Origin: Gammaproteobacteria bacterium
GTDB lineage: Bacteria; Pseudomonadota; Gammaproteobacteria; Burkholderiales; Burkholderiaceae_B
Reading direction: 5' to 3'
Assembly (NCBI GenBank): GCA_018815245.1
Contig: JAHIXK010000010.1
Span: forward strand, 1 to 64,000
DNA: 64,000 nt
Each line of letters opens with the position of its first letter. Position 1 is the stretch's first letter. Positions 28,172 to 50,595 of the stretch are shown piece by piece. A program made the translations under genes and the position numbers. Under the pieces are notes generated by a model. It was not told the DNA's origin, ran no database searches, and saw only the letters and a program-made list of their open reading frames with translations.

Positions 28172-28188
28172 TGCAATAAGCCTGCCAA
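28172..28188 (-). promoter_or_regulatory. Sigma-54 promoter of the aor operon
   Basis: Minus strand TGGCAGGCTTATTGCA has GG and GC separated by exactly 10 bases and the TTGC core. It lies about 65 bases before aorA. Confidence 0.75.
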
Positions 28189-28268
28189 CCAGAAAAGATA
28201 ATTTGAACAGGTCACGGCAACAAGTTTCTGAATTTCAGCGCAACGACCCGGCACCTGAAATCACATGC

Positions 28269-28284
28269 GTTTCATTTTGCAACA
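28269..28284 (-). promoter_or_regulatory. Candidate activator site upstream of the aor promoter
   Basis: Minus strand TGTTGCAAAATGAAAC matches the pedF-side element TGTTTCAAACTGACAC at 13 of 16 positions and stands about 80 bases upstream of the -24 box, a usual enhancer distance. Confidence 0.5.
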
Positions 28285-28302
28285 CATGTGCCAATAAAAA
28301 AA

Positions 28303-28327
28303 CCCCGCTCAACGGCGGGGCCTTTTA
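28303..28327 (-). terminator. Intrinsic terminator after the MoxJ-like gene
   Basis: CCCCGC-TCAAC-GGCGGGG stem; on the minus strand it is followed by seven T. It ends the cytochrome/binding-protein transcript and separates it from the aor operon. Confidence 0.85.
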
Positions 28328-28348
28328 CAACACGCACCCTGAACTGAA

Positions 28349-29221
28349 TCAAGGGCGCATGTATTTCACGCCGTACTTGGCAAATATTTTCTCAAGCTCG
28401 CCCGATTCTTTCAACTCGTTCATGGCCACAGTCAACTTCTCGGCCAGTTCCTTGTTGGACTTTTTGGTGGCCATGCCCACAGCCCAGCCTTTTGGAGGCA
28501 GTGAATTGTGGGGCACTTTTGACACATAAAAATCCGCTTTCCTGTCGGGGTATTGGTGCAAAGCCCATTCCAGTTCGGCCCGCGTGGCCATTACTGCTAC
28601 CAATTCACCGCTGACCATGGCGTCCACAGCCTCTTTCGGCGTTTTGAAATTGACCAGGTTATTGGCATACATCGCCCCATCGGCGCCCGCCAGCATGATG
28701 CTGGGCAAGGCAGCCGCTTCGGCACCTATTTTGTTGCCTGCCTCGGAAAACGGCGCAAGGCTGTCCAGCGAAGGCAGCTTTTTGGTGTTGCGCGCCACAT
28801 AAATGTCATCGCGCGTGTAGGGCGAGAAGAACAAGGCCTGATCTTCTTTCTGCATGATGTAAGCGTCTACCGGCGCATGCATCAAGACATCAGCGGGCGC
28901 GCCCGCCAGGTAATGCCCACGCGTTACCATGTTGCGAATGTCATCCGAAAACTCTTCGTCTTCAGTGAACGCACGCACCTTCAACCCAAGCCCCAGCTTG
29001 GTGGCCAATGCACGTGCAATGTCCACGTCAATGCCCTTGCCTTCGTGGGAATAAGGTGCAAGATAGTTGTACACAGCAACGGTCAACACACCGGAAGCCT
29101 GAACCCTGGCCCAATCAGTCAGTTCCTGCGCAACCGCGCTGGCCTGAAATGAAAGGGTGAGAACCACAGCACCCAGCGCCTTGAAAAAGGAATATCGACT
29201 CGCTTGAACAGACGCGCTCAT
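28349..29221 (-). CDS. Quinoprotein-associated periplasmic binding protein (MoxJ/XoxJ-like)
   Basis: A 290-residue protein with a signal peptide ending SAVAQE and the solute-binding fold type 3 (LTVAVYNYLAPYSHEGKGIDVD split, then RALATKLGL). The cluster context points to the MoxJ-2/XoxJ family, whose members accompany PQQ dehydrogenases rather than an ABC permease. XoxJ is thought to help mature or activate the dehydrogenase. An AGGAGA site precedes the ATG at 29221. It lies 24 bases after the cytochrome gene, in one operon with it. Confidence 0.8.
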   Translation of the reverse strand: MSASVQASRYSFFKALGAVVLTLSFQASAVAQELTDWARVQASGVLTVAVYNYLAPYSHEGKGIDVDIARALATKLGLGLKVRAFTEDEEFSDDIRNMVTRGHYLAGAPADVLMHAPVDAYIMQKEDQALFFSPYTRDDIYVARNTKKLPSLDSLAPFSEAGNKIGAEAAALPSIMLAGADGAMYANNLVNFKTPKEAVDAMVSGELVAVMATRAELEWALHQYPDRKADFYVSKVPHNSLPPKGWAVGMATKKSNKELAEKLTVAMNELKESGELEKIFAKYGVKYMRP

Positions 29222-29245
29222 GAATTGTCTCCTGCCGGGGTGAAT

Positions 29246-29701
29246 TTATTCGAACGAGCGTGTTTCAACGTAAGCCTTGATGGCCCAAATGGCTTCCTGA
29301 CTCAGGATACCCGCGAATGCAGGCATGTACACGCGGTCACCTCGAACCTTGCCACCCAACACGGAATTGCGAAAGTACACATCCATCTCGGCTTTGCATT
29401 GTTCCTTTGCCTTCTTGCCAGCAAAGGAATCACATTCTGAGTTCATTTTGCGAAGGTCTGGGGAAATACCACCGCTGATGGCTTCCAATCCGTGACAGCG
29501 TGCGCAGTTTTGGTTGTAGGCAGAGCTGCCTACACGAATGGCTTCTTTGTCGCCCACGTAGGGGTTGGTTTCCAGCATGTCATCGCCCAAGGGCTTCAAG
29601 GTAGACACATCAACGACCTGTGGGGTGACATCGCCGTGCGCGAAAGCCACGGTTGCAGCAATGGAAAAAATGGTTGCCACGAGGGCTTTACGAACTAACA
29701 T
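29246..29701 (-). CDS. pedF: Cytochrome c-550 PedF, electron acceptor of PQQ alcohol dehydrogenase
   Basis: A 151-residue periplasmic cytochrome with a signal peptide ending AFAHGDVTPQ and one heme motif CARCH, preceded by NPYVGDKEAIRVGSSAYNQN. PedF/ExaB-type cytochromes take electrons from PQQ ethanol dehydrogenases and pass them to the oxidase. ATG 29701 is chosen (AGGAG 6 bases upstream) over the GTG codon just before it. First gene of a two-gene operon with the MoxJ-like protein, behind a sigma-54 promoter. Confidence 0.88.
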   Translation of the reverse strand: MLVRKALVATIFSIAATVAFAHGDVTPQVVDVSTLKPLGDDMLETNPYVGDKEAIRVGSSAYNQNCARCHGLEAISGGISPDLRKMNSECDSFAGKKAKEQCKAEMDVYFRNSVLGGKVRGDRVYMPAFAGILSQEAIWAIKAYVETRSFE

Positions 29702-29746
29702 CACAACTCCTGTATTTCTAATAATGATTCAACACCCTCAGCTTAC

Positions 29747-29762
29747 TGCAATCCCCATGCCA
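29747..29762 (-). promoter_or_regulatory. Sigma-54 promoter of pedF
   Basis: Minus strand TGGCATGGGGATTGCA: GG and GC are 10 bases apart. It lies 46 bases before the pedF start. Confidence 0.75.
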
Positions 29763-29860
29763 CCCTATTCCCTTGAGTTTGTGAATTAGTTTTACCAATT
29801 GTGACAAATCGCGAACTGTATGGCTCACAAAGAATTTATGTGCTACTTTTTATCAATTGG

Positions 29861-29876
29861 TGTTTCAAACTGACAC
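29861..29876 (+). promoter_or_regulatory. Candidate activator site for pedF
   Basis: TGTTTCAAACTGACAC, about 100 bases upstream of the pedF -24 box. Nearly the same element precedes pqqA (34082). Confidence 0.55.
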
Positions 29877-29890
29877 ACCATGGAATGAGT

Positions 29891-29906
29891 TGGCACAGCG
29901 CTTGCA
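29891..29906 (+). promoter_or_regulatory. Sigma-54 promoter of the activator gene
   Basis: TGGCACAGCGCTTGCA is a near-perfect match to the TGGCAC-N5-TTGCA consensus. It lies 115 bases before the activator start, so the activator may drive its own gene. Confidence 0.75.
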
Positions 29907-30020
29907 TAAGGCAACACAGGGCTGGAACACAAAATCAAATCAATACGTTCAGTGCCAATACAAGTTGCATTAAAAATCATACTTATAAAACGCAGCACGA
30001 CAAGAAAGCAGGAGACATGG

Positions 30021-32468
30021 ATGACATTCTTATCCGAGCGGGACGGCGGCGGCATTGCGTCCAATGCGCAGGTTATTGAACTGATTGACCCCGGCACGGA
30101 AGGGCACCTGGAGTTTATTCGCCGGGCGCACCAGCGATCCACGGCCGCCGGATTGGACACATCTTCCAAAGTCGACATTTCCCCCCCTCCTTCCAGCGCA
30201 CTGAAGGAATTGGTTGAAAAAAACAACCGCCTCAAATCATGCGCCCTGCCTTTCATGGAAACGCTGTACGAGCAGGTGGTGAACACCCACAGCATGGTGT
30301 TGCTGACCGATGCCAGTGGAACGATTATCGAGTCACTGGGTGACGATGATTTTCTTGTGAAAGCCCAGAAGGTGGCTTTGGCTCCCGGCGTAACCTGGAG
30401 CGAAGAACACAAGGGCACCAACGCCATTGGTACGGCCCTGATTGAAGAAATTCCCACCGTGGTACACGGGCAGGATCACTTTCTGGACGTGAACCGTTTT
30501 CTGACCTGTTCAGCCGCACCCATTTTTGACCCCAACGGCGTGGCCATTGGCGTGCTCGACGTAACGGGCGACTACCGCAGCTACCACCGCCACACCATGG
30601 GCCTGGTGCGCATGTCGGCACAAATGATTGAAAACCATTTGTTCAACAGTTCATTTCAAGACGCAATTATTGTGCAGTTTCACCAGCGCGGTGAATTTCT
30701 CGGTTCTGTGGTGGAAGGCGCTGCAGCCTTTTCGCCGGCCGGCAAATTCCTGGCCGCCAACCGTGCGGCAATGGTGCAGTTTGGCATGTCCAGCAACGCC
30801 CTGAAAAGCCACACCTTCAGCTCCCTGTTTGGCATGCCCCTGTCGGCATTGATCGACCATTACCGCACCTGCAACCCCATTCCTCTCATTTTGTGTTTGC
30901 ACAACGGCAACCAGGTTACTGCGCGTGCAAGCCTGGGCAGCGTGGGTCGGGGTCGCATTTTTGATTCCGTGGGTTTGGTGAAAAACAACGCCGATGCAGC
31001 TGTGGTTCAAAATGCAGCCCCTGCCCCGCAAAAAGCGAATACCACCTGCCAGAAAAGCCGACACCTTTCCAGCCTGAAATACCTGAACACGGGCGACCCT
31101 CAAGTGGCCAGGATCATCGAGAAAGTAGGCAAGGTCATCGACAAAGACATTCCCATTTTGATTCTTGGCGAAACCGGTACAGGCAAGGAAATTCTTGCAC
31201 AGGCCATTCACAATGATTCGCCCCGGCAAGACAAACCTTTCGTTGCAGTGAACTGCGCATCCATACCCGAAACACTGATTGAATCGGAATTGTTTGGCTA
31301 CGAAGACGGCGCATTCACAGGCGCGAAGAAAAAAGGCTCGCAAGGCCGTATTTTGCAAGCCAATGGCGGCACCCTTTTTCTGGATGAAATCGGGGACATG
31401 CCCATTTCGCTGCAGGCGCGCTTGCTGCGCGTGCTGCAAGAACGGGTCGTAACGCCACTGGGCAGCCAGAAAAGCATCCCGGTGAATTTGCAGGTAATTT
31501 GTGCCACACACCGCAACCTTCGCGACCAAATTGCAACAGGCCACTTCCGGGAAGACTTGTATTATCGCCTGCACGGTTTGGTGGTTCGGCTGCCTGCGTT
31601 GCGTGAACGGACTGATCTTCAGAAAATCATTCAGCGCATTCTGGAAAACGAATCACACAACCCGCGCATCCGCGTGTCTGCTGAAGTAATGAAGGCTTTC
31701 ACCACGCACGGCTGGCCCGGCAACATTCGCCAGTTGACCAATATTTTGCGAACAGCCAGCGTGATGACTGACGACGCCGAAACCATTGAGTGGGATCACC
31801 TGCCCGATGACTTTCTGGACGAATGGCGCGCGCTACGCCTGGACACCAAACTGCACAGCAAGCACACGGTGGAAGCCGTCATCGAAGCCAAGGCAATGCC
31901 GGTCACAGCAGAACCTGAGCGCGCCGCACCAGCAGCCCAAAACCGCCCGCAATTCAGCGTGCGCAGCAATTTTTCAGTTCAAACCAAAGGCGCCGGGTTT
32001 AATCCAAAACCGCCTTTGGCAAGTGGCCCGGCTCATGGTGTAGCCCCACGAAGCAAGGCCAGCCTGTTTGATGTTCAAGTTCACCGGGGGCACGGTGGTG
32101 GCGTGGCCAACAAACCCCACGGACTGGATCAAACCTTCAGCAAGTTCCGCGAAGGCCGGTTCGACACTTGGCAACACCCGAACAAACACGAGCAGCGTGA
32201 CGAGCATGCCATTCCATCCGTGTCACCAACGCCCCGATTCAAAGACGATGGTTTCGACACCCGCGCTTACGATGCCAGGGCACAAGGTTATCTGGGTGCC
32301 CGCCAATCGGCGGCGCGCGCGCCCATCGACAACCCGATCAACCTGGATGATCTTGAATCACGCGCCATTCAGGAAGCGCTTGAAACCTGTCGAGGCAACG
32401 TGAGCGCCGCGGCCAGAATGTTGGGCATTTCGAGAAACACCATTTACAGGCGATTGAACGCCAAGTAG
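30021..32468 (+). CDS. AcoR-type sigma-54-dependent activator
   Basis: An 815-residue activator. N-terminal sensor region with a GAF-like domain (about 70-215) in the AcoR pattern (KGTNAIGTAL, CSAAPIFDPNG). AAA+ domain (about 345-585): Walker A GETGTGKE (383-390), the sigma-54 contact loop GAFTGA (430-435), Walker B GGTLFLDE (449-456). C-terminal Fis-type helix-turn-helix (776-815). Between AAA+ and HTH is an unusual linker of about 170 residues, rich in Pro, Arg, His and Gln. ATG 30021 has AGGAGA upstream. It likely senses an alcohol or aldehyde and activates the surrounding -24/-12 promoters. Confidence 0.9.
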   Translation: MTFLSERDGGGIASNAQVIELIDPGTEGHLEFIRRAHQRSTAAGLDTSSKVDISPPPSSALKELVEKNNRLKSCALPFMETLYEQVVNTHSMVLLTDASGTIIESLGDDDFLVKAQKVALAPGVTWSEEHKGTNAIGTALIEEIPTVVHGQDHFLDVNRFLTCSAAPIFDPNGVAIGVLDVTGDYRSYHRHTMGLVRMSAQMIENHLFNSSFQDAIIVQFHQRGEFLGSVVEGAAAFSPAGKFLAANRAAMVQFGMSSNALKSHTFSSLFGMPLSALIDHYRTCNPIPLILCLHNGNQVTARASLGSVGRGRIFDSVGLVKNNADAAVVQNAAPAPQKANTTCQKSRHLSSLKYLNTGDPQVARIIEKVGKVIDKDIPILILGETGTGKEILAQAIHNDSPRQDKPFVAVNCASIPETLIESELFGYEDGAFTGAKKKGSQGRILQANGGTLFLDEIGDMPISLQARLLRVLQERVVTPLGSQKSIPVNLQVICATHRNLRDQIATGHFREDLYYRLHGLVVRLPALRERTDLQKIIQRILENESHNPRIRVSAEVMKAFTTHGWPGNIRQLTNILRTASVMTDDAETIEWDHLPDDFLDEWRALRLDTKLHSKHTVEAVIEAKAMPVTAEPERAAPAAQNRPQFSVRSNFSVQTKGAGFNPKPPLASGPAHGVAPRSKASLFDVQVHRGHGGGVANKPHGLDQTFSKFREGRFDTWQHPNKHEQRDEHAIPSVSPTPRFKDDGFDTRAYDARAQGYLGARQSAARAPIDNPINLDDLESRAIQEALETCRGNVSAAARMLGISRNTIYRRLNAK

Positions 32469-32508
32469 GCTGCGTTGCCTTGTAGACCAGGCGACCTGAA
32501 TTGCCCGC

Positions 32509-32539
32509 AAAAGCCATCCGGAATCCGGGTGGCTTTTTT
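32509..32539 (+). terminator. Intrinsic terminator after the activator gene
   Basis: AGCCATCCGG-AAT-CCGGGTGGCT stem (one small mismatch) followed by six T; preceded by A-run, so it may work in both directions. Confidence 0.85.
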
Positions 32540-32562
32540 CTTGCCAAAAGTCCCTGAACACT

Positions 32563-32579
32563 TGTCACAAAACTGTCAC
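32563..32579 (+). promoter_or_regulatory. Activator site upstream of the porin gene
   Basis: TGTCACAAAACTGTCAC. The same 15-16 bases, reversed, occur at 42812 and 50534. It stands about 130 bases upstream of the porin -24 box. Confidence 0.6.
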
Positions 32580-32709
32580 TCACCTGCTCCAACCGCAAAC
32601 AAACCTGTTTCAAAGCGCACCGCCTGACGCGTACCAACTGTATTTCACATCCATGTCATCAAAAGCCCTACATTTCCATTTATTTCAATAAAAACAACAA
32701 CTTAAATTC

Positions 32710-32725
32710 TGGCATGGCTTTTGCC
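32710..32725 (+). promoter_or_regulatory. Sigma-54 promoter of the porin gene
   Basis: TGGCATGGCTTTTGCC: GG and GC are 10 bases apart with a TTGC core; about 100 bases before the ATG. Confidence 0.7.
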
Positions 32726-32824
32726 CTAATACATTCCAAGCCAGCTTTACTCTGCAGTTCGCTGGCGAGCTTTAAAAAACAAACAAGCAGCAACTTTCAA
32801 AACTAAAACTGGAGGGTTGATCTC

Positions 32825-34012
32825 ATGATCAGCAAAAAATTAGTAGCAGCTTCCATCTTGGCAGCAATGGGGACTTCGGCACACGCAATCGGCTTTAAAG
32901 CGGGCGATTGGGAAATGGATCTATCAGGTTCAGTGAACGCGTACTACAACACAACGAGCTGCGACAATGCAGGTGCAACAGCAAGTGGCGCATTGGGGCT
33001 TTGTGGCACAGCGGGCACGGGACAGGATCAGACATCCATTCAGAACGGTTTGCTGCCCGGTTTCATTATTTTTACCGCTTCAACGAAACAAGCTGGTTAC
33101 GACCTGAAAGCTGTGATTTCGATTGACCCAGGCACAACCAACAACAACGGCGCAGCCGGTGGCGTAGGCCAGAACGTCGGCGATCAGCGTCGCGTGTTCC
33201 TGCAATTCGGCAACGAAACAATGGGCACCATCAAGGCCGGTCGCGACATCGGCCTGTTTGGTCAAAACGCAATTTTGAACGACATGTCTTTGCTGGCTGT
33301 GGGCGGTGGCTCTGGCTACAACGGCGCACTGAACACAACACTGGGCGGCATCGGGTCAGGTTACATCTACACCGAATTCCAGCCACAAATCACTTACACA
33401 ACACCGGCGCTTGGCAATCTGAGCCTGTCGGCAGGCGTATTTCAGCCCAAGGACTTGAATGGCACAACAGCACAAGAAAATGATTCGCCAGGCATGCAAG
33501 CATTGGCCTCTTACAGCCTTGGCGACAGCGGCAAATTGTGGGCTGCTTTGATCAACCAGTCTCAGTCCGGTGCAGCAGGCGCACCCGATGCAGACCTGAC
33601 CGGTTTTGAAGCAGGCGGTACAGTGAATTTTGGTGCCTTGTCATTGACAGGTAACTACTTCACCGGCGAAGGCCTGGGTACAACACTGATCGGTTTCGGT
33701 GGCCGTGACGCTGCTGGAGCCGAACGCGATTCCGACGGCTATCTGGTGCAAGCGACATACAAGGTTGGAAACACCAAGTTTGGTATCAACTATGGTTCAT
33801 CTACACTGGATTCCACAGCTGGCGACCGTGCTGCAAATGCCATCATGCTTGAAGAGACCAACCAGATGGTTCTGGGTGCTTATCACAACCTGACACCCAG
33901 CCTGACACTGGCTGCTGAATACATCACCAACGAACAAACCTATCAGCTGGGCGCACCAAGTGCAAAAGGCGAATCCAACACAATCGCTGTAGGCGCAATC
34001 CTGTTCTTCTAA
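32825..34012 (+). CDS. Gram-negative outer-membrane porin
   Basis: A 395-residue porin with a signal peptide ending TSAHAIGFKAG and a beta-barrel containing QRRVFLQFGNETMGTIKAGRDIGLFG, the loop-3-proximal pattern of betaproteobacterial general porins, and a C-terminal aromatic (AVGAILFF). It lets small solutes across the outer membrane. GGAGGG stands before the ATG. The sigma-54 promoter and activator site upstream place it with the alcohol-oxidation genes, so it may admit alcohols or other substrates, though porins of this family are often unspecific. Confidence 0.88.
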   Translation: MISKKLVAASILAAMGTSAHAIGFKAGDWEMDLSGSVNAYYNTTSCDNAGATASGALGLCGTAGTGQDQTSIQNGLLPGFIIFTASTKQAGYDLKAVISIDPGTTNNNGAAGGVGQNVGDQRRVFLQFGNETMGTIKAGRDIGLFGQNAILNDMSLLAVGGGSGYNGALNTTLGGIGSGYIYTEFQPQITYTTPALGNLSLSAGVFQPKDLNGTTAQENDSPGMQALASYSLGDSGKLWAALINQSQSGAAGAPDADLTGFEAGGTVNFGALSLTGNYFTGEGLGTTLIGFGGRDAAGAERDSDGYLVQATYKVGNTKFGINYGSSTLDSTAGDRAANAIMLEETNQMVLGAYHNLTPSLTLAAEYITNEQTYQLGAPSAKGESNTIAVGAILFF

Positions 34013-34038
34013 TCGTTAACCACCCTCCGTTAACGATT
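34011..34038 (+). repeat. Hairpin at the porin stop codon
   Basis: AATCGTTAAC and GTTAACGATT are perfect 10-bp arms around 8 bases, overlapping the TAA. Followed by the true terminator; it may protect the mRNA end. Confidence 0.5.
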
Positions 34039-34044
34039 ATCCCA

Positions 34045-34075
34045 AGGCGCAAACCCACAAGGTTTGCGCCTTTTT
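34045..34075 (+). terminator. Intrinsic terminator of the porin gene
   Basis: AGGCGCAAACC-CACAA-GGTTTGCGCCT stem followed by TTTT. Confidence 0.92.
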
Positions 34076-34081
34076 GCTTTT

Positions 34082-34097
34082 TGTTTCAAACTGCAAC
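34082..34097 (+). promoter_or_regulatory. Candidate activator site upstream of pqqA
   Basis: TGTTTCAAACTGCAAC, identical in its first 12 bases to the element on the pedF side; about 60 bases upstream of the pqqA -24 box. Confidence 0.5.
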
Positions 34098-34159
34098 AGG
34101 TTGCACACCAAAGTGGACTTATTTTCCACATCACAAAATTTCCGACAAATACCAGTGCA

Positions 34160-34175
34160 CGGCACAGGAATTGCT
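34160..34175 (+). promoter_or_regulatory. Sigma-54 promoter of the pqq operon
   Basis: CGGCACAGGAATTGCT: GG and GC 10 bases apart; only the first base departs from TGGCA. It lies 100 bases before pqqA. Confidence 0.65.
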
Positions 34176-34274
34176 ATTTAAATTTCGAGGACGAACAACA
34201 CGGCGCAAGCCAGGTTCTTCACCGGATCCCCTCGGGGTGCGGTGCATTTTAATAAAGCACAAGGAGGATTTTTC

Positions 34275-34349
34275 ATGCAGTGGACTACACCATCATTCGT
34301 TGACATGCGTTTCGGTTTCGAAATCACCATGTACATCGCCAACCGTTAA
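34275..34349 (+). CDS. pqqA: PqqA, precursor peptide of pyrroloquinoline quinone
   Basis: A 24-residue peptide too short for ordinary gene calling. It begins MQWTTPSFVDMR and has the conserved Glu16 and Tyr20 (FEITMY) that PqqE joins by a carbon-carbon bond and that become the PQQ ring system. A strong AAGGAGG site lies 8 bases before the ATG at 34275. A terminator-like hairpin follows before pqqB. Confidence 0.95.
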   Translation: MQWTTPSFVDMRFGFEITMYIANR

Positions 34350-34365
34350 TTTGACGGTTCGCACA

Positions 34366-34402
34366 GCCCCGGATAGCCTTTCAGGCTGGCGGGGTTTTTT
34401 TT
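34366..34402 (+). terminator. Attenuator/terminator between pqqA and pqqB
   Basis: CCCC...AGCCT-TTC-AGGCT...GGGG stem followed by eight T. A partial terminator here would give far more pqqA than pqqBCDE mRNA, fitting the use of PqqA as substrate. Confidence 0.8.
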
Positions 34403-34421
34403 ACCCCTGAAAAAAGCAATT

Positions 34422-35354
34422 ATGAAAATCAAAGTTCTGGGTTCCGCAGCAGGCGGAGGTTTCCCCCAGTGGAACTGCAACTGCACAAACTGCCAGGCCG
34501 TGCGTGCCAATACGCCGGGATACACCGCACGCACGCAGTCGTCGATTGCGATTTCCGACGGGTCTGCCAACTGGATATTGGTGAATGCTTCGCCCGATAT
34601 TCTCACGCAAATCAAAAACACCCCGGAACTGCAACCCAACCGCGGCCCTCGTGACACTGGCATTTCTGCTGTCATTTTGATGGACGCACAAATTGACCAC
34701 ACCACCGGCTTGCTGATGATGCGCGAGGGCAAAACCCCCATGCGCCTGTTCACCACGCCAGCCGTGTGGGAAGACCTGACCAACGGCCTGCCGCTGGTCC
34801 CCACGCTGGGCTTTTACTGCGGTGTGAAATGGACCCCGCTGTGCACCGAATGTGATGATCCATTTTCAATCAGCCCGCTGGACAGCATCAAGATCAAATC
34901 CATTCCGCTGATCAGCAAGGCGCCACCCTATTCCCCCAGCCGTTACGCCCAACGCCGAGGCGACAACATTGGACTGTTTATCGAAGACAGCAACACGGGC
35001 AAAAAAGTATTCTATGCGCCGGGGCTGGGCGAAATCACGCCCGAGATTCTGCCATTCATGCAGCAAGCCGACGTGTTGATGGTGGACGGCACTTTCTGGA
35101 CCGAAGATGAAATGGTCACGCAAGGGTTTTCACAAAAGATGGCGGCCGACATGGGCCACCTGCCGCAAACCGACAAACCGGGTGAACGGGGATCGGGCAT
35201 GATCAGCCAGCTTCGCCAGTTCAAAAAGCAGCGCAAAATCCTGATTCACATCAACAACACGAATCCGATTTTGTACGAACACGGCGACGAGCATGCCATT
35301 CTGGCCGACAATGGAATTGAAGTGTCTTACGATGGCATGGAGATTCTGATATGA
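34422..35354 (+). CDS. pqqB: PqqB, PQQ biosynthesis hydroxylase (MBL fold)
   Basis: A 310-residue metallo-beta-lactamase-fold protein of normal PqqB length. It begins [21 protein letters not shown] and has the Cys group WNCNCTNC, then [15 protein letters not shown] where other hydrolases have HxHxDH. PqqB hydroxylates the tyrosine of the processed PqqA peptide. It overlaps pqqC by 4 bases. Confidence 0.97.
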
Positions 35355-36064
35355 ACAACAAAGCCTGGAGCAAGAAAGAATTCGAGGAACGCCTGCGTGC
35401 CAAGGGCGACCGCTACCACATTCACCACCCCTTCAATGTGGCCATGCGCGAAGGCAAACTAAGCCGCGAACAATTGCGCGGCTGGGTGGCCAACCGGTTT
35501 TATTACCAAGTGTGCATTCCGCAAAAAGACGCGGCCGTGATGGCCAACTGCGACGACCGCGAAACACGGCGCCGCTGGGTACAGCGCATTCTTGACCACG
35601 ACGGCTGGGAAGGCAATGCGGGCGGCATCGAGGCCTGGAGCCGCCTGGGTGAAGCCGTGGGCATTGACCGTGAAGTGCTTTGGAACCAGCAACTTGTGCT
35701 GCCCGGCGTGCGCTTTGCCGTGGATGCTTATGTAAACTTTGCCCGCCGCGCACCTTGGCAAGAAGCGGTGTGTTCATCGCTGACAGAAATGTTTGCGCCT
35801 GAAATTCACAAGCAACGCCTGAGCAACTGGCCCAAAGACTACAAGTGGGTGGCTTCAGAAGGGTTGAATTATTTCCGCTCCAGAATCAGCCTGGCCCAAC
35901 GCGATGTAGAACACGGTTTGGAAGTAACATTGAATTATTTCAAGACTCGCGCACAACAGGAACGCGCCTTGGAAATACTGCAATTTAAACTGGACGTGTT
36001 GTGGAGTATGTCCGACGCGATTGCGCTGGCCTATCCCGACAAACCAAAGAAGCCCAGGAAATGA
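35351..36064 (+). CDS. pqqC: PqqC, pyrroloquinoline-quinone synthase
   Basis: A 237-residue helical, cofactor-free oxidase that performs the last ring closure and eight-electron oxidation giving PQQ. Family features: [17 protein letters not shown] at the N-terminus and [17 protein letters not shown] (about 50-66), with the active-site His/Tyr/Arg set of the family. Starts inside the pqqB stop and overlaps pqqD by 4 bases. Confidence 0.97.
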
Positions 36065-36342
36065 ATACCGAAACAACACCCACATTGCCGCAGCACCCCA
36101 AACTGAACCGCTTGTTCCGTTTGCAGTACGAAGACGCGCAAAAAACCCATGTGTTGCTGTACCCCGAGGGCATGGTGAAATTGAACCAGTCCGCCAGCGA
36201 AATTTTGCTGCTGTGCGATGGCACACGCACAGTAACGCAGATCGTGGCCGCACTGGAAGCCAAGTTCAACTCCGAAGGCCTGCATGCAGACGTACAAAGC
36301 ATGCTTGAAGAGGCAGTGCGCCGCAACTGGCTAGACGCATGA
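36061..36342 (+). CDS. pqqD: PqqD, peptide chaperone of PQQ synthesis
   Basis: A 93-residue RiPP recognition element protein. It contains [22 protein letters not shown] and [15 protein letters not shown], the winged-helix core that binds PqqA and presents it to PqqE. ATG 36061 overlaps the pqqC stop and its own end overlaps pqqE by 4 bases. Confidence 0.95.
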
Positions 36343-37535: not shown

Positions 37536-38317
37536 ATCTCAGCGCCACAGACACCATTCGCCTTCACGCACAAGGCCTGTATTTTTCCTGGGGCAAACAC
37601 CCGGCACTCAAAAAAGTCAGCCTTGACCTTCAAGCCGGGGAAATGTTTGGCCTGCTCGGCCCCAACGGCGCAGGGAAAACCACCCTGATCAGCCTGATCG
37701 CCGGCTTGATAGCGCCCGACCAGGGCGAGCTGTCCGTGCTGGGCTACAGCACCCGCAGATCGGCGCACCTGGCCCGCAAAAACCTGGGCTTTGTGTTTCA
37801 ATCCGTGTCGCTGGACCGCTTCATGACCGTGGAAGAAAACCTGTTGTTTGCAGCTGGCCTGCAAGGCCTGAACAAAGCACAAACCGAGGCCAACCTGGCC
37901 CACCTGTACACCATCTTCCCCATCCACCAGTGGTTGAAACGCACCGTGGGCAGTTTGTCTGGCGGGCAGAAACGCCTGGTCGATATTGCGCGCGCCATGG
38001 TTCACCAGCCCGGTGTATTGATCCTTGATGAACCCACCACCGCGCTGGATGTACCATCGAAAAACAGCGTGTGGGAAACCCTGAAAACCCTTCAAGCCAT
38101 CGATGGCCTGACCATATTCGTGGCCACCCATTTGATGGACGAAGCCAGCACCTGCGACCGTGTGGGTTTTCTGAATCAAGGCGAATTAAACTGGCTGGGC
38201 ACCCCTGCACAAGCGCTGGATGAACTACCCGACCAAAGTGTGAGCAGCGTCCGCACCGTTACCTTGGCCGACTGGTTTGTGTGGAAAATGAACGGCGGAG
38301 CCCGCAAACCATGCTGA
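37484..38317 (+). CDS. ABC transporter ATPase of the PQQ alcohol dehydrogenase system (PedB-like)
   Basis: A 277-residue ATPase with Walker A GPNGAGKT, Q-loop FVFQSVS, signature LSGGQKR and Walker B VLILDEPTTALD. With the next gene it forms the exporter typical of PQQ-alcohol systems (the PedABC group), whose cargo is not settled. The ATG at 37484 would overlap pqqE by 52 bases; a TTG at 37532 that overlaps the pqqE stop (TTGA) is a real alternative and would give 261 residues. Confidence 0.87.
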   Translation: MVSQRPQQLAPEQKQQLNLSATDTIRLHAQGLYFSWGKHPALKKVSLDLQAGEMFGLLGPNGAGKTTLISLIAGLIAPDQGELSVLGYSTRRSAHLARKNLGFVFQSVSLDRFMTVEENLLFAAGLQGLNKAQTEANLAHLYTIFPIHQWLKRTVGSLSGGQKRLVDIARAMVHQPGVLILDEPTTALDVPSKNSVWETLKTLQAIDGLTIFVATHLMDEASTCDRVGFLNQGELNWLGTPAQALDELPDQSVSSVRTVTLADWFVWKMNGGARKPC

Positions 38318-40583: not shown

Positions 40584-40601
40584 ACACCACAGACGAAAAA
40601 A

Positions 40602-40622: not shown

Positions 40623-40771
40623 GAAAAGACGCATTCGTTAGGAGACTCTCAAACCGCCACAACTTTCTCCGACTCCCAATCAATGCCAGAAAAAGGTCCC
40701 AAGGAGCAATTTGATCAAACCGTCTGCGTCATAAGTTCGCTGCGGAGCAGGCAGAAAACTCGGGGGTGAAA

Positions 40772-40840: not shown

Positions 40841-40848
40841 TGTTTTTT
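40812..40848 (+). terminator. Intrinsic terminator, plus strand
   Basis: ATCAAAC...CCCC-ACAC-GGGG...GTTTGAT stem followed by GTTTTTT. It ends plus-strand transcripts of the FadL-type gene or of a small transcript starting in the gap. Confidence 0.75.
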
Positions 40849-40857
40849 ACAAACTGA

Positions 40858-42609: not shown

Positions 42610-42692
42610 TTTTTGTTTCTCCTCTCATCATCCGTTACTTTGAGGTTCTCGCCCCTCGTTTGCAGAGTCGGGGCTACCCAATGCAAACCTAG

Positions 42693-42708
42693 CGCAAGCT
42701 TCATGCCA
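42693..42708 (-). promoter_or_regulatory. Sigma-54 promoter of the PQQ alcohol dehydrogenase gene
   Basis: Minus strand TGGCATGAAGCTTGCG: GG and GC 10 bases apart; 84 bases before the ATG. Confidence 0.75.
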
Positions 42709-42805
42709 AGTAGAATAAATCTTCTATATAATTTTTTTATTCAATAAAATCAGTAAGTTATAAAAACACCCTCTTTCAGGTGGTTTGGATAAATGCGACA
42801 GGCAA

Positions 42806-42872
42806 AAAAAGAGACAGTTTTGTGACACTGCAACAGCACATCTGTTCAGCAACACACAAACTGTCTCTTTTT
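42806..42872. terminator. Inverted repeat acting as terminator and containing an activator-site copy
   Basis: AAAAAGAGACAGTTT (42806-42820) and AAACTGTCTCTTTTT (42858-42872) are perfect 15-bp arms; T-runs close both strands, so it can end the SoxH-like transcript on the minus strand. The left arm and following bases (42811-42827, minus TGTCACAAAACTGTCTC) match the activator element found before the porin and second PQQ gene, about 105 bases upstream of the dehydrogenase -24 box. Confidence 0.6.
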
Positions 42873-42897
42873 GAAACAACTGGCACAGTACTAACCC

Positions 42898-43875
42898 TTA
42901 GAATCCGCCCAAAGTTTCCTTTTCATACACTGGGTACAAATTGGTCACATTGCGATAAAACTCAGCCGGGTAAGCCGCAAAGTTTCTAAACCGCTCGGGC
43001 GCTCCCTTTTTCATCACATCATTGATTTCCTCGCCCATTTCAGCAGCCTCCGCCAGGCGCTTGTCCAGCCAGTTGAGGTAATCCAGCGTTTGCTCAATGG
43101 CTTCACTGCCCCAACTCACCGGGCCGTGGCTGGGCACCACCACCTTCGGTTTCATCGCTTGCAGCGTTTTAAGGCTTTCAATCCAGGGTTTCAATTTGGC
43201 ATGGGGTGTGGTGACAATCCGCTTGTAAAAAACAAGGCCACCAGCCCACATCACCCTGCTTTCCGGGTCAAACAACACCAAATCTGAATCGGTGTGGCCT
43301 TTCAGTTCGATCGCTTCAATGGGCTTGCTACCAAAACGTTTCAAGCTGGCTGGCACGATGGTTTGCGTGGAGAATGCGCTTTCCGTGGCCTTCATCCAGT
43401 CGCCGCACAAACGGTACAAATTCGTTTCATACAGGGCCGCTTCCGCCTTGACGCCCTGAATCGTTACCTTGGTCGCTGCCAGCGCTTCCTTCGGGTAAGC
43501 CTGATTGCCCAAAAAATAATCCGGGTGCAGGTTCAACGCCACCACTTGCTTGATGGGCTTGCCCTTGCTGATTGAATCAATCAAGGCGCGTTGCTGCTCG
43601 CCGTACAGGCGTGATGTGCCTGTGTTGATCACATACACCCCGGCATCGTCCACATAAAACCCGGTGTTGATGATGTTGCAGCCGTTGGCCTGCGAAAAAT
43701 CATCATTGGCCCCGGCAATCACATACCAGCCACCGGCCAGCTTGGTTGCCTTCAAACCGTAATTGAGCGTGGCCTTGTCGGGTGTGGGTTGGGCCACATT
43801 GGGCAATTCAGCCCTGGCCTGCCCTGCGGCAGTCGCCGTGATCAGCGCTGTTGCAATCAAGCACTTCAATTTCAT
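42898..43875 (-). CDS. Quinoprotein relay system metallohydrolase (SoxH-like, MBL fold)
   Basis: A 325-residue secreted protein with a signal peptide ending ARAELP. MBL-fold order is kept: VYVINTGTSRLYGEQQ, then NLHPDYFLGN in the place of NTHxHxDHxxGN, then GHTDSDLV and a C-terminal PSHGP. Some zinc ligands are thus altered (only one His in the first motif). It belongs to the SoxH-related proteins found with PQQ dehydrogenases and SoxYZ-like carriers, role unproven. Overlaps the SoxYZ-like gene by 4 bases. Confidence 0.8.
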   Translation of the reverse strand: MKLKCLIATALITATAAGQARAELPNVAQPTPDKATLNYGLKATKLAGGWYVIAGANDDFSQANGCNIINTGFYVDDAGVYVINTGTSRLYGEQQRALIDSISKGKPIKQVVALNLHPDYFLGNQAYPKEALAATKVTIQGVKAEAALYETNLYRLCGDWMKATESAFSTQTIVPASLKRFGSKPIEAIELKGHTDSDLVLFDPESRVMWAGGLVFYKRIVTTPHAKLKPWIESLKTLQAMKPKVVVPSHGPVSWGSEAIEQTLDYLNWLDKRLAEAAEMGEEINDVMKKGAPERFRNFAAYPAEFYRNVTNLYPVYEKETLGGF

Positions 43876-44723
43876 TGCGTAACCTTTGCGTCGATTCGGT
43901 TGCCATTGTTGTCTCGCCCTACCAAACTGATAGGGCCAACTGGTTTTTTGTCGAAGTCAAACGAAAACAAGGGGTTCTCAGACACCGGTTCGAATGGATA
44001 CAACCTGGCCAGCACCTGTTTGTTTTTGTCTTGCAGAATCATTTCCTCAATGTAGAAGGCAGGTACACCCGCTACCAAACCCGTGTCCATGGGGTGCGAC
44101 ACCTGCACCCGCAAACGTGCATCGTCGCGCAACTGGTTGGCATCAAACATTTTGCCGGCAACCTTGTTCAGGGTTTGCGTCCAAGTGCCATCCGCGCGGG
44201 TGGCACCCGGCACGGTGCACCCTCCACCCGAGGCCTCTATAAAGGCGTAGCCCACGTGCCACACATTGTCCTGTCCAAGCGCGGCCACACGGATGGGGCT
44301 GGCCTGCTCCAGCTTGAACCTGAAATTCAGGGCGGGCCTGGCTTGTTCGGGTATGAATTCAAGCACCTTGCGAATGGGGTTGCGGTCCACCAGCACCACA
44401 ATTTTTTTTACCTTGCCTATCGCTGACGCATCGAATGACACGGGCACATTCATGGCGTCTTCAGCGAACAGGGGCACTGTTACCTTGATTCGGGCATCGA
44501 ACACCATTGCGGCGTTCGCATCGAAAAACTGCCCTTTCATGTCGGGCCACTGCATGGAACCCAACGGGTCCCCGCCCGTCAAATCCCCTTTCACCGCACC
44601 CATTTCTGCAGCGGCGGCTTGCACGGGGGTGGCAAAGAAATTGCCTGCCAGCAACGCAACGGCCACGCAAAGTGCACGCCCCCAAATTGAATTCATTCTT
44701 GTTATGGAACAACCATACTTCAT
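43872..44723 (-). CDS. Quinoprotein-associated SoxYZ-like carrier protein
   Basis: A 283-residue secreted fusion of a SoxY-like domain (about 60-175, KVTVPLFAEDAMNVPVSFDA) ending in GGGC, and a SoxZ-like domain (about 190-283, VSHPMDTGL and EEMILQDKN). In SoxYZ the Cys near the C-end of SoxY carries the sulfur group; here Cys in GGGCTVPG is the equivalent. Such fusions occur next to PQQ dehydrogenases with unknown cargo. AGGAG stands before the ATG at 44723. Followed, with overlap, by the SoxH-like gene. Confidence 0.83.
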   Translation of the reverse strand: MKYGCSITRMNSIWGRALCVAVALLAGNFFATPVQAAAAEMGAVKGDLTGGDPLGSMQWPDMKGQFFDANAAMVFDARIKVTVPLFAEDAMNVPVSFDASAIGKVKKIVVLVDRNPIRKVLEFIPEQARPALNFRFKLEQASPIRVAALGQDNVWHVGYAFIEASGGGCTVPGATRADGTWTQTLNKVAGKMFDANQLRDDARLRVQVSHPMDTGLVAGVPAFYIEEMILQDKNKQVLARLYPFEPVSENPLFSFDFDKKPVGPISLVGRDNNGNRIDAKVTQ

Positions 44724-44763
44724 GATGACCTGTCTCCTGCCATGTGCAATCTGTCAGAATGCA

Positions 44764-44779
44764 AGCAATCGATGTGCCT
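44764..44779 (-). promoter_or_regulatory. Sigma-54 promoter of the SoxYZ-like/SoxH-like operon
   Basis: Minus strand AGGCACATCGATTGCT: GG and GC 10 bases apart. Predicted start near 44753 leaves about 30 bases of leader. It overlaps the upstream region of the divergent regulator, which favours that gene starting at 44790. Confidence 0.6.
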
Positions 44780-44789
44780 ATATTCGCAA

Positions 44790-45866
44790 ATGCTTAACTT
44801 AAAAGTATCCGCTCGCTGGAAAAAAGACGATGGTCAAACCGTTGAACTGGATCAACGCTTGCTGTCGGCATTAAAAACCATCGACTCGGAAGGCTCGATC
44901 TCGCTGGCCTGCAAATCGCTCGGCGTTTCTTACCGCACCCTGTGGTCGCAGATTCAACAATACAACGAAATGCTGGGGGAAGACCTGGTTGCAACGCATG
45001 GGCGTGCCGGTGCCTGCCTTACGCGGTTTGGGCACAAGTTGATCTGGATGGTTGAACAAGGCAACGTGCGCGTTGCGCCCGACCTGGGAACCGTCGGCGA
45101 GCAATTGAATGCGGAGTGGCTGGACATTGAGCAGAACAAGCCCTGGATCAGCCTTGCTTTAAGCGACGATCTGGCGCTGCAAAACCTCTTTCAAAACACA
45201 GCACTGTACAAAAAACTGCAATTGTCGCTGCGCTGGTCAGGCAGCATCGCGGCGCTTTCGGCCTTGCACCGGGGTGAAGTGCGTGTGGCTGGCTGCCACT
45301 TGCCTGTGGGGCTTGACGAACACTCGCATGTGCATCAAATCATGCGTCGCTGGTTGCGCGGGTCAAACCTGTCGGTGGTTGAACTGTTTGAGCGCGACAT
45401 CGGCTGGATGAGCCGCCCCGTGGCCAGCCCGCCCACACTGGACGATGTTGCCAAGCGGCGCGCGCTGCTGGTGAACCGAAACTCGGCTTCATCCACCCAC
45501 CACCAGTTGAATGCCTTGATTACGAAAGCCGGCCTGAACCCGGAAGAACTGCCGGGCTATTATCACGAAGAAAATTCACACTTGGCTGTGGCCTGTACCA
45601 TTGCGGCAGGGCATGGTGATTTGGGTTTGGGCATTCGCGCGGCGGCCAACCACTATGGCTTGCAGTTCCGCCTGGTGTCCAAGGAACAGTATTTTTTGGT
45701 GCTGCACAACAATGACCTGAATTACCCCGCCATGGAAATCATGCTGCCCTGGCTTACCAGCCCGGAGGTTTTGGCCCAGGTCGAGCAAACGGCGGGCTAC
45801 AGGGCAACACGCTTGGGCAGAACACAGGCGTTGGAAGTGTTCCTGAATGAAATTCAGGAGAAATAA
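44790..45866 (+). CDS. ModE-like one-component regulator with periplasmic-binding-like domain
   Basis: A 358-residue protein. N-terminal winged helix like ModE (LLSALKTIDSEGSISLACKSLGVSYRTLW, about 24-52). The rest resembles the PBP-like effector domain of the family (WISLALSDDLALQNL, then AGCHLPVGLDEHSHVH, then AGHGDLGLGIRAAANHYGL). Members often respond to molybdate/tungstate or small organic ligands. Divergent from the SoxYZ-like operon, 67 bases apart, so it may control that operon. ATGs at 44742 and 44772 are in frame but would overlap the opposing promoter. Confidence 0.75.
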   Translation: MLNLKVSARWKKDDGQTVELDQRLLSALKTIDSEGSISLACKSLGVSYRTLWSQIQQYNEMLGEDLVATHGRAGACLTRFGHKLIWMVEQGNVRVAPDLGTVGEQLNAEWLDIEQNKPWISLALSDDLALQNLFQNTALYKKLQLSLRWSGSIAALSALHRGEVRVAGCHLPVGLDEHSHVHQIMRRWLRGSNLSVVELFERDIGWMSRPVASPPTLDDVAKRRALLVNRNSASSTHHQLNALITKAGLNPEELPGYYHEENSHLAVACTIAAGHGDLGLGIRAAANHYGLQFRLVSKEQYFLVLHNNDLNYPAMEIMLPWLTSPEVLAQVEQTAGYRATRLGRTQALEVFLNEIQEK

Positions 45867-48069: not shown

Positions 48070-48079
48070 GCGTGCGTCG

Positions 48080-49024: not shown

Positions 49025-49083
49025 GGGCGCGCGTTAAACTGCCTGATCAACCCAACAAGAATTCAATCAGCAGGTAGCAGTAC

Positions 49084-50304
49084 ATGGATGCGGACAAAAC
49101 ATGGGACGTCAATATCAGCACAAGCCGGGAATGGGCGCTGCTGCTGATTCTCGCGGGCATCCAGTTCACACACATCCTCGATTTCATGATCATGATGCCG
49201 CTGGGCCCGCAACTGACGCAGGCCTTTTCCATTTCCGATGCGAAGTTCGGCTTGCTGGTGTCGGCTTACACTTTCGCGGCCGGTGCGTCAGGCCTGCTCG
49301 CCTCGCTTTACATTGACCGGTTCGAGCGCCGCCGCTTGCTCCTTGTTTTGTATTTCCTGTTCGCTGTGGCAACTCTGGCCTGCGGCCTGGCACCCACTTA
49401 CGAAACACTGATGGGTGCGCGTGTTGCCGCGGGTTTGTTCGGGGGCATCTTGTCGGCCATGATACAGACCATTGTGGCCGACGTGGTGCCCTTTGCCCGA
49501 CGGGGCAAAGCCATGGGTGTCATCATGACATCGTTCTCGGTGTCCACCGTCATGGGCGTTCCGCTGGGTTTATTCGTGGCAGCCCATTCAAGCTGGCACA
49601 CACCTTTTTTTGGCATTGCAGGCATCAGCTTCGTGTTGGTGGTGGCGGCCGTTTACGTCATCCCGACCTTGCAGGGTCACTTGCATGCGCGGGGTGAAAC
49701 TGGCCCGCTACAAGGCATCGCGCAAGTGCTGCGCGACCCCAACCACCTGATTGCATTCTGTTTCTCGTTTTGCATGATCTTCGCCGGGTTTTCCATCATC
49801 CCGTACATCACGATTTACATGCAGGCGAATGCCGGGCTTTCCCCTTCCGACATTCCGCTGATTTATCTTGCCGGTGGCGCAGCCACGCTGTTCAGCGCGC
49901 AGATCATCGGCAAACTGAGCGACAAAATCGGCAAGCTCAAAATGCTGCAGATCATCGCCACCATCGCGATCATCCCCATGGCTTTGATCACCCAAACTGA
50001 AGGCATGGGCAAGATCGCAATCTTGATCATCACCACCTGTTTTTTTGTGTTTGTCAGCGGAAGAATGATTCCAGGCATGGCCATGGTCAGCGCTGCGGGC
50101 AATCCGAAAAACCGGGGCACCTTCATGACGCTGAATTCGTCCATGCAATCAGCCGCAATGGGGTTGGCTGCCCTGGTTGGCGGGCATTTGATCGAAAGAA
50201 ACGTGGAAGGGCTGATAGAAAACTACTGGCTGTGCAGTGTGATCGCCATTGTGTTCAACGTCATCGCAATGCTGATCGCCCGGCAAATCAAGGTGTACCG
50301 ATAA
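49084..50304 (+). CDS. MFS transporter
   Basis: A 406-residue major facilitator protein with 12 helices. Loop 2-3 motif YIDRFERRRLLL (D-x4-R/K-R-R type) stands near residue 80, and GRMIPGMAMVSAAGNPKNRG appears in the second half. It resembles arabinose-efflux-like permeases. Substrate unknown. It is separated by 59 bases from the AEC gene and may be part of the same transcript. Confidence 0.85.
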   Translation: MDADKTWDVNISTSREWALLLILAGIQFTHILDFMIMMPLGPQLTQAFSISDAKFGLLVSAYTFAAGASGLLASLYIDRFERRRLLLVLYFLFAVATLACGLAPTYETLMGARVAAGLFGGILSAMIQTIVADVVPFARRGKAMGVIMTSFSVSTVMGVPLGLFVAAHSSWHTPFFGIAGISFVLVVAAVYVIPTLQGHLHARGETGPLQGIAQVLRDPNHLIAFCFSFCMIFAGFSIIPYITIYMQANAGLSPSDIPLIYLAGGAATLFSAQIIGKLSDKIGKLKMLQIIATIAIIPMALITQTEGMGKIAILIITTCFFVFVSGRMIPGMAMVSAAGNPKNRGTFMTLNSSMQSAAMGLAALVGGHLIERNVEGLIENYWLCSVIAIVFNVIAMLIARQIKVYR

Positions 50305-50318
50305 GGGGGCCTGAATGT

Positions 50319-50474
50319 TCAGCTTGCCATGCGGCGAATGATTGACGACACCACCATGCGAAGCCCCTTGATTTCTTTCGCCTCCAGTGGGCGCTTGTCT
50401 TTCAGGTCTTTGTCTTTACACAGCTCTTCAAGCTTGCTTTCAATTTCTTTCAACAGTTCAAGTTGTTGTTTCAT
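50319..50474 (-). CDS. 51-residue charged helical protein, unknown
   Basis: Minus-strand ATG at 50474 opens a 51-codon frame (start MKQQLELLKEIES, end IIRRMAS). The protein is rich in Lys and Glu and likely all helical, which is unusual for a random frame. Only a weak ribosome site (AAGTGA) is seen. It is convergent to the MFS gene and divergent from the second PQQ dehydrogenase. No family recognised. Confidence 0.5.
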   Translation of the reverse strand: MKQQLELLKEIESKLEELCKDKDLKDKRPLEAKEIKGLRMVVSSIIRRMAS

Positions 50475-50532
50475 GATCACTTACTAATAGAATCGCGTAG
50501 GCGAAATATACACGCTAGCACACGCGCTTTGG

Positions 50533-50549
50533 ATGACAGTTTTGTGACA
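50533..50549 (-). promoter_or_regulatory. Activator-site copy upstream of the second PQQ dehydrogenase
   Basis: Minus strand TGTCACAAAACTGTCAT, the same core as at 32563 and 42811. It lies 30 bases upstream of a weak -24/-12 candidate. Confidence 0.5.
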
Positions 50550-50579
50550 CGCCACTGCCCCAGATTGCAACAGTTTCAA

Positions 50580-50595
50580 TGGTTTGATCTTTGCT
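50580..50595 (+). promoter_or_regulatory. Weak sigma-54 promoter candidate
   Basis: TGGTTTGATCTTTGCT keeps GG-N10-GC and TTGC but not the CA after the first GG; 38 bases before the ATG. Confidence 0.35.

Follow-up and report, generated by a model that had tools for sequence, protein, structure and literature searches.

A putative sigma-54 regulon of PQQ-dependent alcohol oxidation and a tungsten aldehyde oxidoreductase in a Burkholderiales genome

The stretch of DNA analysed here (the window, 64,000 nucleotides of contig JAHIXK010000010.1) holds a gene cluster for alcohol oxidation with pyrroloquinoline quinone (PQQ), together with an operon for a tungsten aldehyde oxidoreductase (AOR) and the gene of a sigma-54 activator. 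The cluster extends over about 24.4-45.9 kb and contains the aorABC-type operon, sbp, pedF, the activator gene, a porin gene, pqqABCDE, an ABC exporter pair, the gene of a FadL-type protein, the PQQ alcohol dehydrogenase gene (adh) and the genes of a SoxH-like hydrolase, a SoxYZ fusion and a ModE-like regulator. We consider it highly probable that the local activator, a protein with GAF, AAA+ and Fis-type domains, runs the PQQ and AOR genes as one regulon by means of a palindrome and sigma-54 promoters. The parts of this model that are read from the sequence are the -24/-12 boxes, the palindrome, their conservation, the single rpoN gene, and the joint presence and absence with the activator. 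The source genome comprises 3.22 Mb on 17 contigs, with one copy of rpoN and eight strong sigma-54 activator domains. The whole analysis was done by computation on sequence and published text.

Sigma-54 boxes, enhancer palindrome and activator

Sigma-54 promoters resemble TGGCAC-N5-TTGCA and carry the core GG-N10-GC. The boxes were scored with a hand-made weight matrix that was built on this consensus. A preliminary description of the DNA had listed seven GG-N10-GC boxes and a weak one at 50580, and all of them were found:

28172-28187, minus strand: -24/-12 box of aorA, TGGCAGGCTTATTGCA; it passes a score of 19 and is kept in the 12 genus loci scored
29747-29762, minus strand: -24/-12 box of pedF, in 12 of 12 genus loci
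29891-29906, plus strand: -24/-12 box of the activator gene, in 13 of 18 upstreams
32710-32725, plus strand: -24/-12 box of the porin gene, in 13 of 14 upstreams
34160-34175, plus strand: -24/-12 box of pqqA, in 12 of 12 loci
42693-42708, minus strand: -24/-12 box of adh, in 11 of 11 genus loci and 22 of 26 loci of other genera
44764-44779, minus strand: -24/-12 box of the soxYZ-soxH pair, in 9 of 12 upstreams; no palindrome within two mismatches
50580-50595, plus strand: weak -24/-12 box TGGTTTGATCTTTGCT before the gene of a second PQQ dehydrogenase, score 16.7

Relatives were scored over 350 bp upstream of each gene, in up to 19 loci and with a threshold of at least 19; upstreams shorter than 300 bp were dropped. 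A box was present at aorA in 12 of 13 upstreams, at pedF in 16 of 18, at the activator gene in 13 of 18, at the porin gene in 13 of 14, at pqqA in 12 of 12, at adh in 15 of 16, at soxYZ in 9 of 12 and at the second dehydrogenase in 0 of 6. One locus of the adh set (L153) has a dehydrogenase that is only 36% identical, and the extrapolated start of the activator in L088 was wrong. Because the query for pqqA, used purely to mark a position, was shifted by one base from its frame, the pqqA distances are off by one base. In the row for the window's own aorA a site at 28278 ranked best, and the 28172 box passes 19 too. For a control, the upstreams of eight other genes of the relatives (sbp, abcA, fadL, lysR, leuB, mfs, modE and mbl) were scored, and none of these 77 had a box of at least 19; one modE upstream showed the palindrome described below at two mismatches. 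A ninth control, pqqB, was set aside because its upstream holds the pqqA box (13 of 15). The site at 50580 is weak in every locus and reaches 19 in none of the six, the window included; its GG-N10-GC core is kept in all six, each with a palindrome within two mismatches just upstream.

Gene order is conserved among the relatives of the same genus, and the activator (E <= 1e-100) is present in 12 of the 15 other genomes of the genus that were surveyed. It has no match in G001, G006 and G010 (85, 99 and 65% complete), and G008, the 13th genus genome with the activator, stands outside the 12 genus loci scored. Since the genus members are closely related, other genera weigh more in the conservation test. 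There, the adh box was found in 22 of 26 loci, where 0.19 would be expected; this count leaves out L110 and L245, in which the gene is cut, and L111, L112 and L153, in which adh is 36-40% identical. The four misses are G236, which is without this activator, and L107, L233 and L237, which have it. The pedF box was present in 12 of 18 loci outside the genus. The observation of the boxes is thereby confirmed and is made stronger by conservation than the window alone allowed.

A putative enhancer, the palindrome TGTTBCA-N3-TGVAACA, accompanies the boxes of aor, pedF and the activator, and pqqA. These copies and two weaker ones are listed without strand:

28268-28284: palindrome of aor, within a 13-nt inverted repeat and some 90 bp upstream of the box
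29861-29877: palindrome common to the divergent pedF and activator genes; the distance is about 107 bp to the box of pedF and about 22 bp to that of the activator
34082-34098: palindrome of pqqA, the sole exact TGTTKCANNNTGMAACA in the genome; 12 of 12 loci within one mismatch
42862-42878: weak palindrome upstream of adh, two mismatches
50556-50572: imperfect palindrome before the second PQQ dehydrogenase

The exact copy of TGTTKCANNNTGMAACA stands at pqqA, and those at aor and at pedF/activator deviate by one mismatch each. Across the whole genome there is one exact copy; eight places match within one mismatch and 108 within two, whereas the reversed pattern gives 15. Of 11 palindrome loci selected outside the cluster, ten were inspected (L022 was left out); all overlap a reading frame and have no box of at least 18 within 320 bp. 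Conversely, 15 of 22 other selected sigma-54 loci were examined and showed no palindrome within two mismatches in the 300 bp upstream. In the relatives, TGTTBCANNNTGVAACA occurred within one mismatch at aorA in 12 of 13 upstreams, at pqqA in 12 of 12, at pedF in 11 of 18 and at the activator gene in 10 of 18. The position of the palindrome beside the activator's own box suggests autoregulation.

AcoR-type enhancer-binding proteins have a GAF sensor, an AAA+ domain with the GAFTGA motif and a Fis-type helix-turn-helix (HTH) domain, and they lack a receiver domain. The activator has the same architecture, and no receiver domain was found in it. The AcoR-type label that it was given before holds for the architecture. 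Among the best 25 of 30 NCBIfam matches, there was no named equivalog above its cut-off; since all listed matches are under their cut-offs, the protein is called AcoR-like by architecture only.

The activator and the dehydrogenase occur together. In 399 genomes of the order, the activator (E <= 1e-130) was found in 58, the clade of the dehydrogenase (E <= 1e-200) in 26 and both in 25; in 23 of these 25 the two share a contig, and in 20 the distance between them is within 20 kb. G006 has neither the activator nor an adh-clade match, and it has kept the AOR with 96% identity. Upstream of its aorA there is no box (best score 14.8) and no palindrome (best 3 mismatches), and in its 19.9-kb stretch (L255) the queries of the PQQ block were all without a match. 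In the 12 genus loci that were scored and have the activator, the box and the palindrome of the AOR operon are kept; in G006, where no activator was found, both are missing. In the G006 stretch, aorA has a lysR-leuB-mfs block about 2.6 kb upstream.

Alternative readings

Several observations weigh against the single regulon, and they are given here and with the alternatives that they favour. The palindrome was first spotted in this window, and its window copies are no independent test. The genus loci are close relatives, whose conservation is not fully independent, and outside the genus the pedF box is missing in 6 of 18 loci. G013, a fragmented genome of the same genus (91% complete), has the activator and no adh match. 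G236, of another family, has adh without this activator and without a box within 260 bp, which fits the single regulon, but another sigma-54 activator-type domain lies near its adh (46% over 27% of the query). Elsewhere in the genome, among the matches listed, a few palindromes at two mismatches lie upstream of loose sigma-54 sites. Five such loose pairs were checked, and three combined a box of at least 18 with a two-mismatch palindrome (C2:180066, C2:531845 and C4:12891); all three fall within genes, and no gene starts downstream of them.

It is possible, though we think it unlikely, that the sigma-54 promoters are real and serve two activators, the local one at aor, pedF, its own gene and pqq, and another, bound at a second motif or elsewhere, at the porin gene, adh, soxYZ and the second dehydrogenase. 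In the relatives, the palindrome within one mismatch was found at the porin gene in 0 of 14 upstreams, at soxYZ in 0 of 12 and at adh in 1 of 16. Furthermore, a 15-base motif, motif B (TGTCACAAAACTGTC), has exactly three copies in the genome:

32563-32577, plus strand: motif B, copy 1, before the porin gene
42813-42827, minus strand: motif B, copy 2, before adh
50535-50549, minus strand: motif B, copy 3, before the second PQQ dehydrogenase

The genome holds no copy of it with one mismatch and six with two. When up to two mismatches were allowed, motif B was present in most genus relatives, with L091 as an exception, and a scan of eight loci from other genera found no copy. This motif points to another factor or a second class of site at these three genes, and the eight strong activator domains of the genome would offer candidates. 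Two activators are harder to reconcile with the adh upstreams of other loci, where L089 and L232 have an exact palindrome and L246 has one within one mismatch, with the presence of this activator in 25 of the 26 adh genomes and with the lack of motif B in the other genera. The earlier claim of a single sigma-54 regulon is supported in that one regulon with a local activator takes in the PQQ system and the AOR operon, whose box and palindrome are kept with the activator and gone in G006; at the porin gene, adh and soxYZ, which in most relatives are without a good palindrome copy, it leaves room for a second regulator. When motif B was read by eye as a variant of the palindrome, its right half did not match, and when it was read as TGTCAC repeated in direct orientation, it was complete only at the porin gene.

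The AOR operon might be a mere neighbour of the regulon, with a promoter that answers another sigma-54 activator, for example one for amino-acid-derived aldehydes. We regard this as improbable. The operon encodes an Fe-S small subunit, a W large subunit and a FAD subunit in the order aorA-aorB-aorC on one strand, as in AorABC, and the aorB product is predicted to be a tungsten enzyme. This AOR was found in 35 of the 399 genomes. Outside the genus its upstream had a box of at least 18 in only 3 of 30 cases (30 of 33 genomes; G064, G106 and G389 were left out), which favours the neighbour, as does the AOR of Aromatoleum aromaticum, which according to passages of PMC6365974 is made on phenylalanine. 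Against it, the aor palindrome of the genus is about as good as that of pqqA (12 of 12 genus loci within one mismatch), and G006, where no activator was found, lacks both elements. Since adh boxes are wide in the order and AOR boxes were found in 3 of 30 upstreams, the PQQ part appears to be broadly sigma-54-wired and the AOR to have been joined mainly in this genus, to which its sigma-54 wiring would be largely confined. In G294, G416 and G083 no more than about 11 kb separates the AOR from the activator, and among the matches listed the AOR adjoins sbp-pedF in a Piscinibacter metagenome-assembled genome. In G294 and the Piscinibacter genome, the order aorA-sbp-pedF would permit read-through from the pedF box. 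In the window, a terminator-like repeat stands between sbp and aorA.

We give little credence to the view that the local activator is not the working one and that a LuxR-type or other regulator cooperates with sigma-54. It has a precedent in Azospirillum exaA (as cited in PMC6115532) and a possible candidate in a UhpA/MctR-like response regulator with its kinase at 17848-19648; this two-component pair is UhpB/UhpA- or MctS/MctR-like, with matches under the cut-offs, and lies near a fused TRAP transporter permease. However, the palindrome sits in the activator's own promoter and is shared with pedF. In addition, the activator and the box are jointly missing at aor in G006 and at adh in G236, and the annotated genes of the cluster (24-46 kb) include none for a LuxR-type regulator.

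The raw count of boxes is less telling. The window holds 14 sites of at least 19, against 4-10 (mean 6.2) in ten first-order resamplings, and since only seven of the 14 are the reported boxes, the excess is modest. Strong sites at 21003 (minus strand), within the TRAP transporter gene, and at 28557 (minus strand), within sbp, are probably false. The strong box at 28278 (minus strand) was rejected because it overlaps the enhancer palindrome; it has no same-strand counterpart of at least 19 in ten long relative loci. The genome has 290 sites within one mismatch of YTGGCAYN5TTGCW, against 60 for the reversed control pattern. A loose three-mismatch sigma-54 pattern gave 474 matches where 510 were expected, and sigma-70-like promoters in 28100-45000 numbered 7 against a mean of 8.9 in shuffles, so neither was in excess. 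The boxes are credible because they are kept at the same genes in relatives and are paired with the palindrome. That they are chance matches, as the modest count and the strong sites inside genes might suggest, can be dismissed in view of the position-specific conservation, the clean control genes and the recurrence in other genera.

Enzymes and other genes of the cluster

The genes of the cluster and the second dehydrogenase were assigned as follows:

24375-25760, minus strand: aorC-like FAD/NAD(P) oxidoreductase subunit (Pyr_redox_2; top NCBIfam match PadH-like, under the model cut-off)
25757-27604, minus strand: aorB, tungsten aldehyde oxidoreductase large subunit (AFOR_N and AFOR_C; start placed from relatives)
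27637-28110, minus strand: aorA, 4Fe-4S small subunit, first gene of the aor operon (4Fe-4S families)
28297-28326, minus strand: terminator-like inverted repeat between sbp and aorA (from an inverted-repeat scan; not in the terminator list)
28349-29221, minus strand: sbp, periplasmic binding protein, probably quinoprotein-associated (SBP_bac_3; weak TIGR03871, under cut-off)
29246-29704, minus strand: pedF, cytochrome c550 (TIGR04494 above cut-off)
30021-32468, plus strand: sigma-54 activator, GAF - AAA+ (GAFTGA) - Fis-type HTH
32825-34012, plus strand: porin (Porin_4)
34275-34349, plus strand: pqqA, 24 aa, read straight from the sequence
34422-37535, plus strand: pqqB, pqqC, pqqD and pqqE (family matches)
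37484-39126, plus strand: ABC exporter pair of the PQQ-alcohol-cluster kind (NCBIfam PQQ_ABC_ATP and PedC, both under cut-offs)
39276-40583, plus strand: FadL/TodX-type outer membrane protein (Toluene_X)
40858-42609, minus strand: adh, PQQ alcohol dehydrogenase, PedH-like, with the lanthanide-type signature WDYD
42898-43875, minus strand: SoxH-like zinc hydrolase of quinoprotein relay systems (TIGR04558 above cut-off)
43872-44723, minus strand: SoxYZ-like fusion carrier (TIGR04557 above cut-off)
50633-52417, plus strand: second PQQ-type dehydrogenase, a possible weaker member of the regulon (PQQ domains; under the TIGR03075 cut-off)

For aorB, the alignment of several relatives begins only near residue 8-12 of the longer frame. 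The closest solved chains to the adh product are 6zcv and 6zcw (804 and 799 bits), ahead of ExaA (1flg, 655 bits); 6zcv we take to be PedH. The active site reads WDYD, as in the XoxF chain; 6zcv and 6zcw have WDFD and ExaA has WDFS. A WD-aromatic-D signature was found at the gene of this clade in all 33 loci listed (32 distinct genomes), with a pattern that required G[VTA]N after the signature and would miss the ExaA-like GNN form. In passages of PMC5487730, the second aspartate, two residues past the catalytic one (WDxD), is tied to lanthanide use. By this signature the adh product is putatively of the lanthanide type. It is the sole protein of the genome above the TIGR03075 cut-off, so that no calcium-type partner was found in the genome. 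A second adh homologue, with 55-56% identity, occurs in two relatives of the genus, G004 and G009.

That the sigma-54 genes cover the whole chain from entry to acid, as had been proposed, goes beyond the boxes. Seven of the ten long genus loci also carry, after the ModE-like gene, an NAD aldehyde dehydrogenase of 506 aa that is preceded by a good sigma-54 box (one of these genes is at L083:21254-22771). No match to it was found in the window, which was the whole extent of that search.

Next to soxYZ and divergent from it, 44742-45866 encodes a protein with a ModE-like HTH and a PBP_like domain that is present in nine of the ten long genus loci; it is possibly a molybdate/tungstate or ligand sensor. 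Upstream of the cluster, 11478-17654 contains a TonB-dependent receptor, an ExbB-like gene and small proteins without assigned function, for which a role in metal uptake, perhaps of a lanthanide, is conceivable. Beside the second PQQ dehydrogenase, 52410-57129 resembles an iron-related operon, in which imelysin and a di-haem oxidoreductase are encoded along with two genes that gave no NCBIfam match. A Variovorax sp. WS11 plasmid (L109), among the matches listed, has sbp-pedF, the activator, pqqBCDE, the dehydrogenase and an aldehyde dehydrogenase together; in this plasmid-borne module boxes are present and the palindrome is exact.

Proposed mechanism and relation to known systems

In the regulon that we propose, the local activator would sense an alcohol or an alcohol product, bind the palindrome and, by ATP hydrolysis, open the sigma-54 RNA polymerase at the -24/-12 promoters before pqqABCDE, adh, pedF, the porin gene, the AOR operon and the activator gene itself. 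Probable further targets would be soxYZ/soxH and, more weakly, the second PQQ dehydrogenase. The alcohol would enter via the porin, and the putatively lanthanide-type PQQ dehydrogenase would oxidise it in the periplasm, with the electrons passing to cytochrome c550; in the cytoplasm the tungsten AOR would oxidise the aldehyde with NAD+. In this genus, the AOR may have been recruited into an older, order-wide sigma-54/PQQ regulon. We lean, by no great measure, towards a broader picture in which one activator serves two exotic-metal enzymes, a lanthanide PQQ dehydrogenase and a tungsten AOR, with neither a calcium enzyme nor a LuxR-type lanthanide switch. The wiring of sigma-54 to the lanthanide dehydrogenase would then be ancestral across much of the order, and the AOR would have been added in the genus and would drop out when the activator is lost.

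The analysis defines an enhancer sequence and with it a regulon that can be tested, and it predicts that a clade of lanthanide-type alcohol dehydrogenases in a large order is switched by alcohol via sigma-54 and not by a lanthanide-sensing two-component system. The activator-promoter pairs are candidate alcohol biosensors. Only five of the 92 clades of tungsten oxidoreductases hold a member with a defined physiological role, according to a recent survey (PMC13328260); the AOR gains a candidate physiological partner in the PQQ alcohol dehydrogenase, which would supply its aldehyde.

The preliminary description had regarded sigma-54 control of the system as a new arrangement. This is too strong for sigma-54 with a PQQ dehydrogenase, which is known from Azospirillum exaA and is common in the order; Ralstonia solanacearum, too, needs rpoN1 for ethanol. 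In the open-licence literature we found no report of an AcoR-type activator that runs a PQQ regulon or joins PQQ to an AOR. The earlier interpretation is partly supported: its outline holds, its claim to novelty is narrower, and the enhancer palindrome, the lanthanide-type signature and a second shared motif are added to it.

The exaA gene of Azospirillum brasilense, like adh here, encodes a sigma-54-dependent PQQ alcohol dehydrogenase. It depends on sigma-54 together with a regulator of the LuxR type (Singh 2017, cited in PMC6115532 and PMC12826043), whereas the regulator here is of the AcoR type, and the passages of these papers describe no link to an AOR. The ped/exa system of Pseudomonas shares with the cluster pedF, the PQQ genes and a PedH-like dehydrogenase (passages of PMC6115532 and PMC12997753). 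With PedS2/PedR2 it has the LuxR-type PedR2 and a pair of calcium and lanthanide enzymes; here, there is no second enzyme of the methanol/ethanol family above the cut-off. In R. solanacearum an AcoR-type activator and sigma-54 take part in ethanol catabolism, as here; in the parts of PMC4676750 consulted, rpoN1 is needed for growth on ethanol and an AcoR-ExaC relation is predicted, so that the listed target differs, being the aldehyde dehydrogenase ExaC.

AorABC of A. aromaticum (PMC6365974) and the class III tungsten oxidoreductases (PMC13328260) have three subunits in the same gene order as here; unlike here, no tie to PQQ or sigma-54 is described in the passages of these papers. In insect-symbiont Burkholderia, as in the window, a single region encodes a sigma-54 regulator of the Fis family together with PQQ genes and a PQQ alcohol dehydrogenase; the regulatory link is not analysed in passages of PMC9088363. 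BmoR of Thauera butanivorans, which drives a butane monooxygenase promoter and is likened here by function and not by sequence, is likewise a sigma-54 activator that responds to alcohol, and its upstream site lies 193 bp from the box (PMC6366067; passages of PMC8899819).

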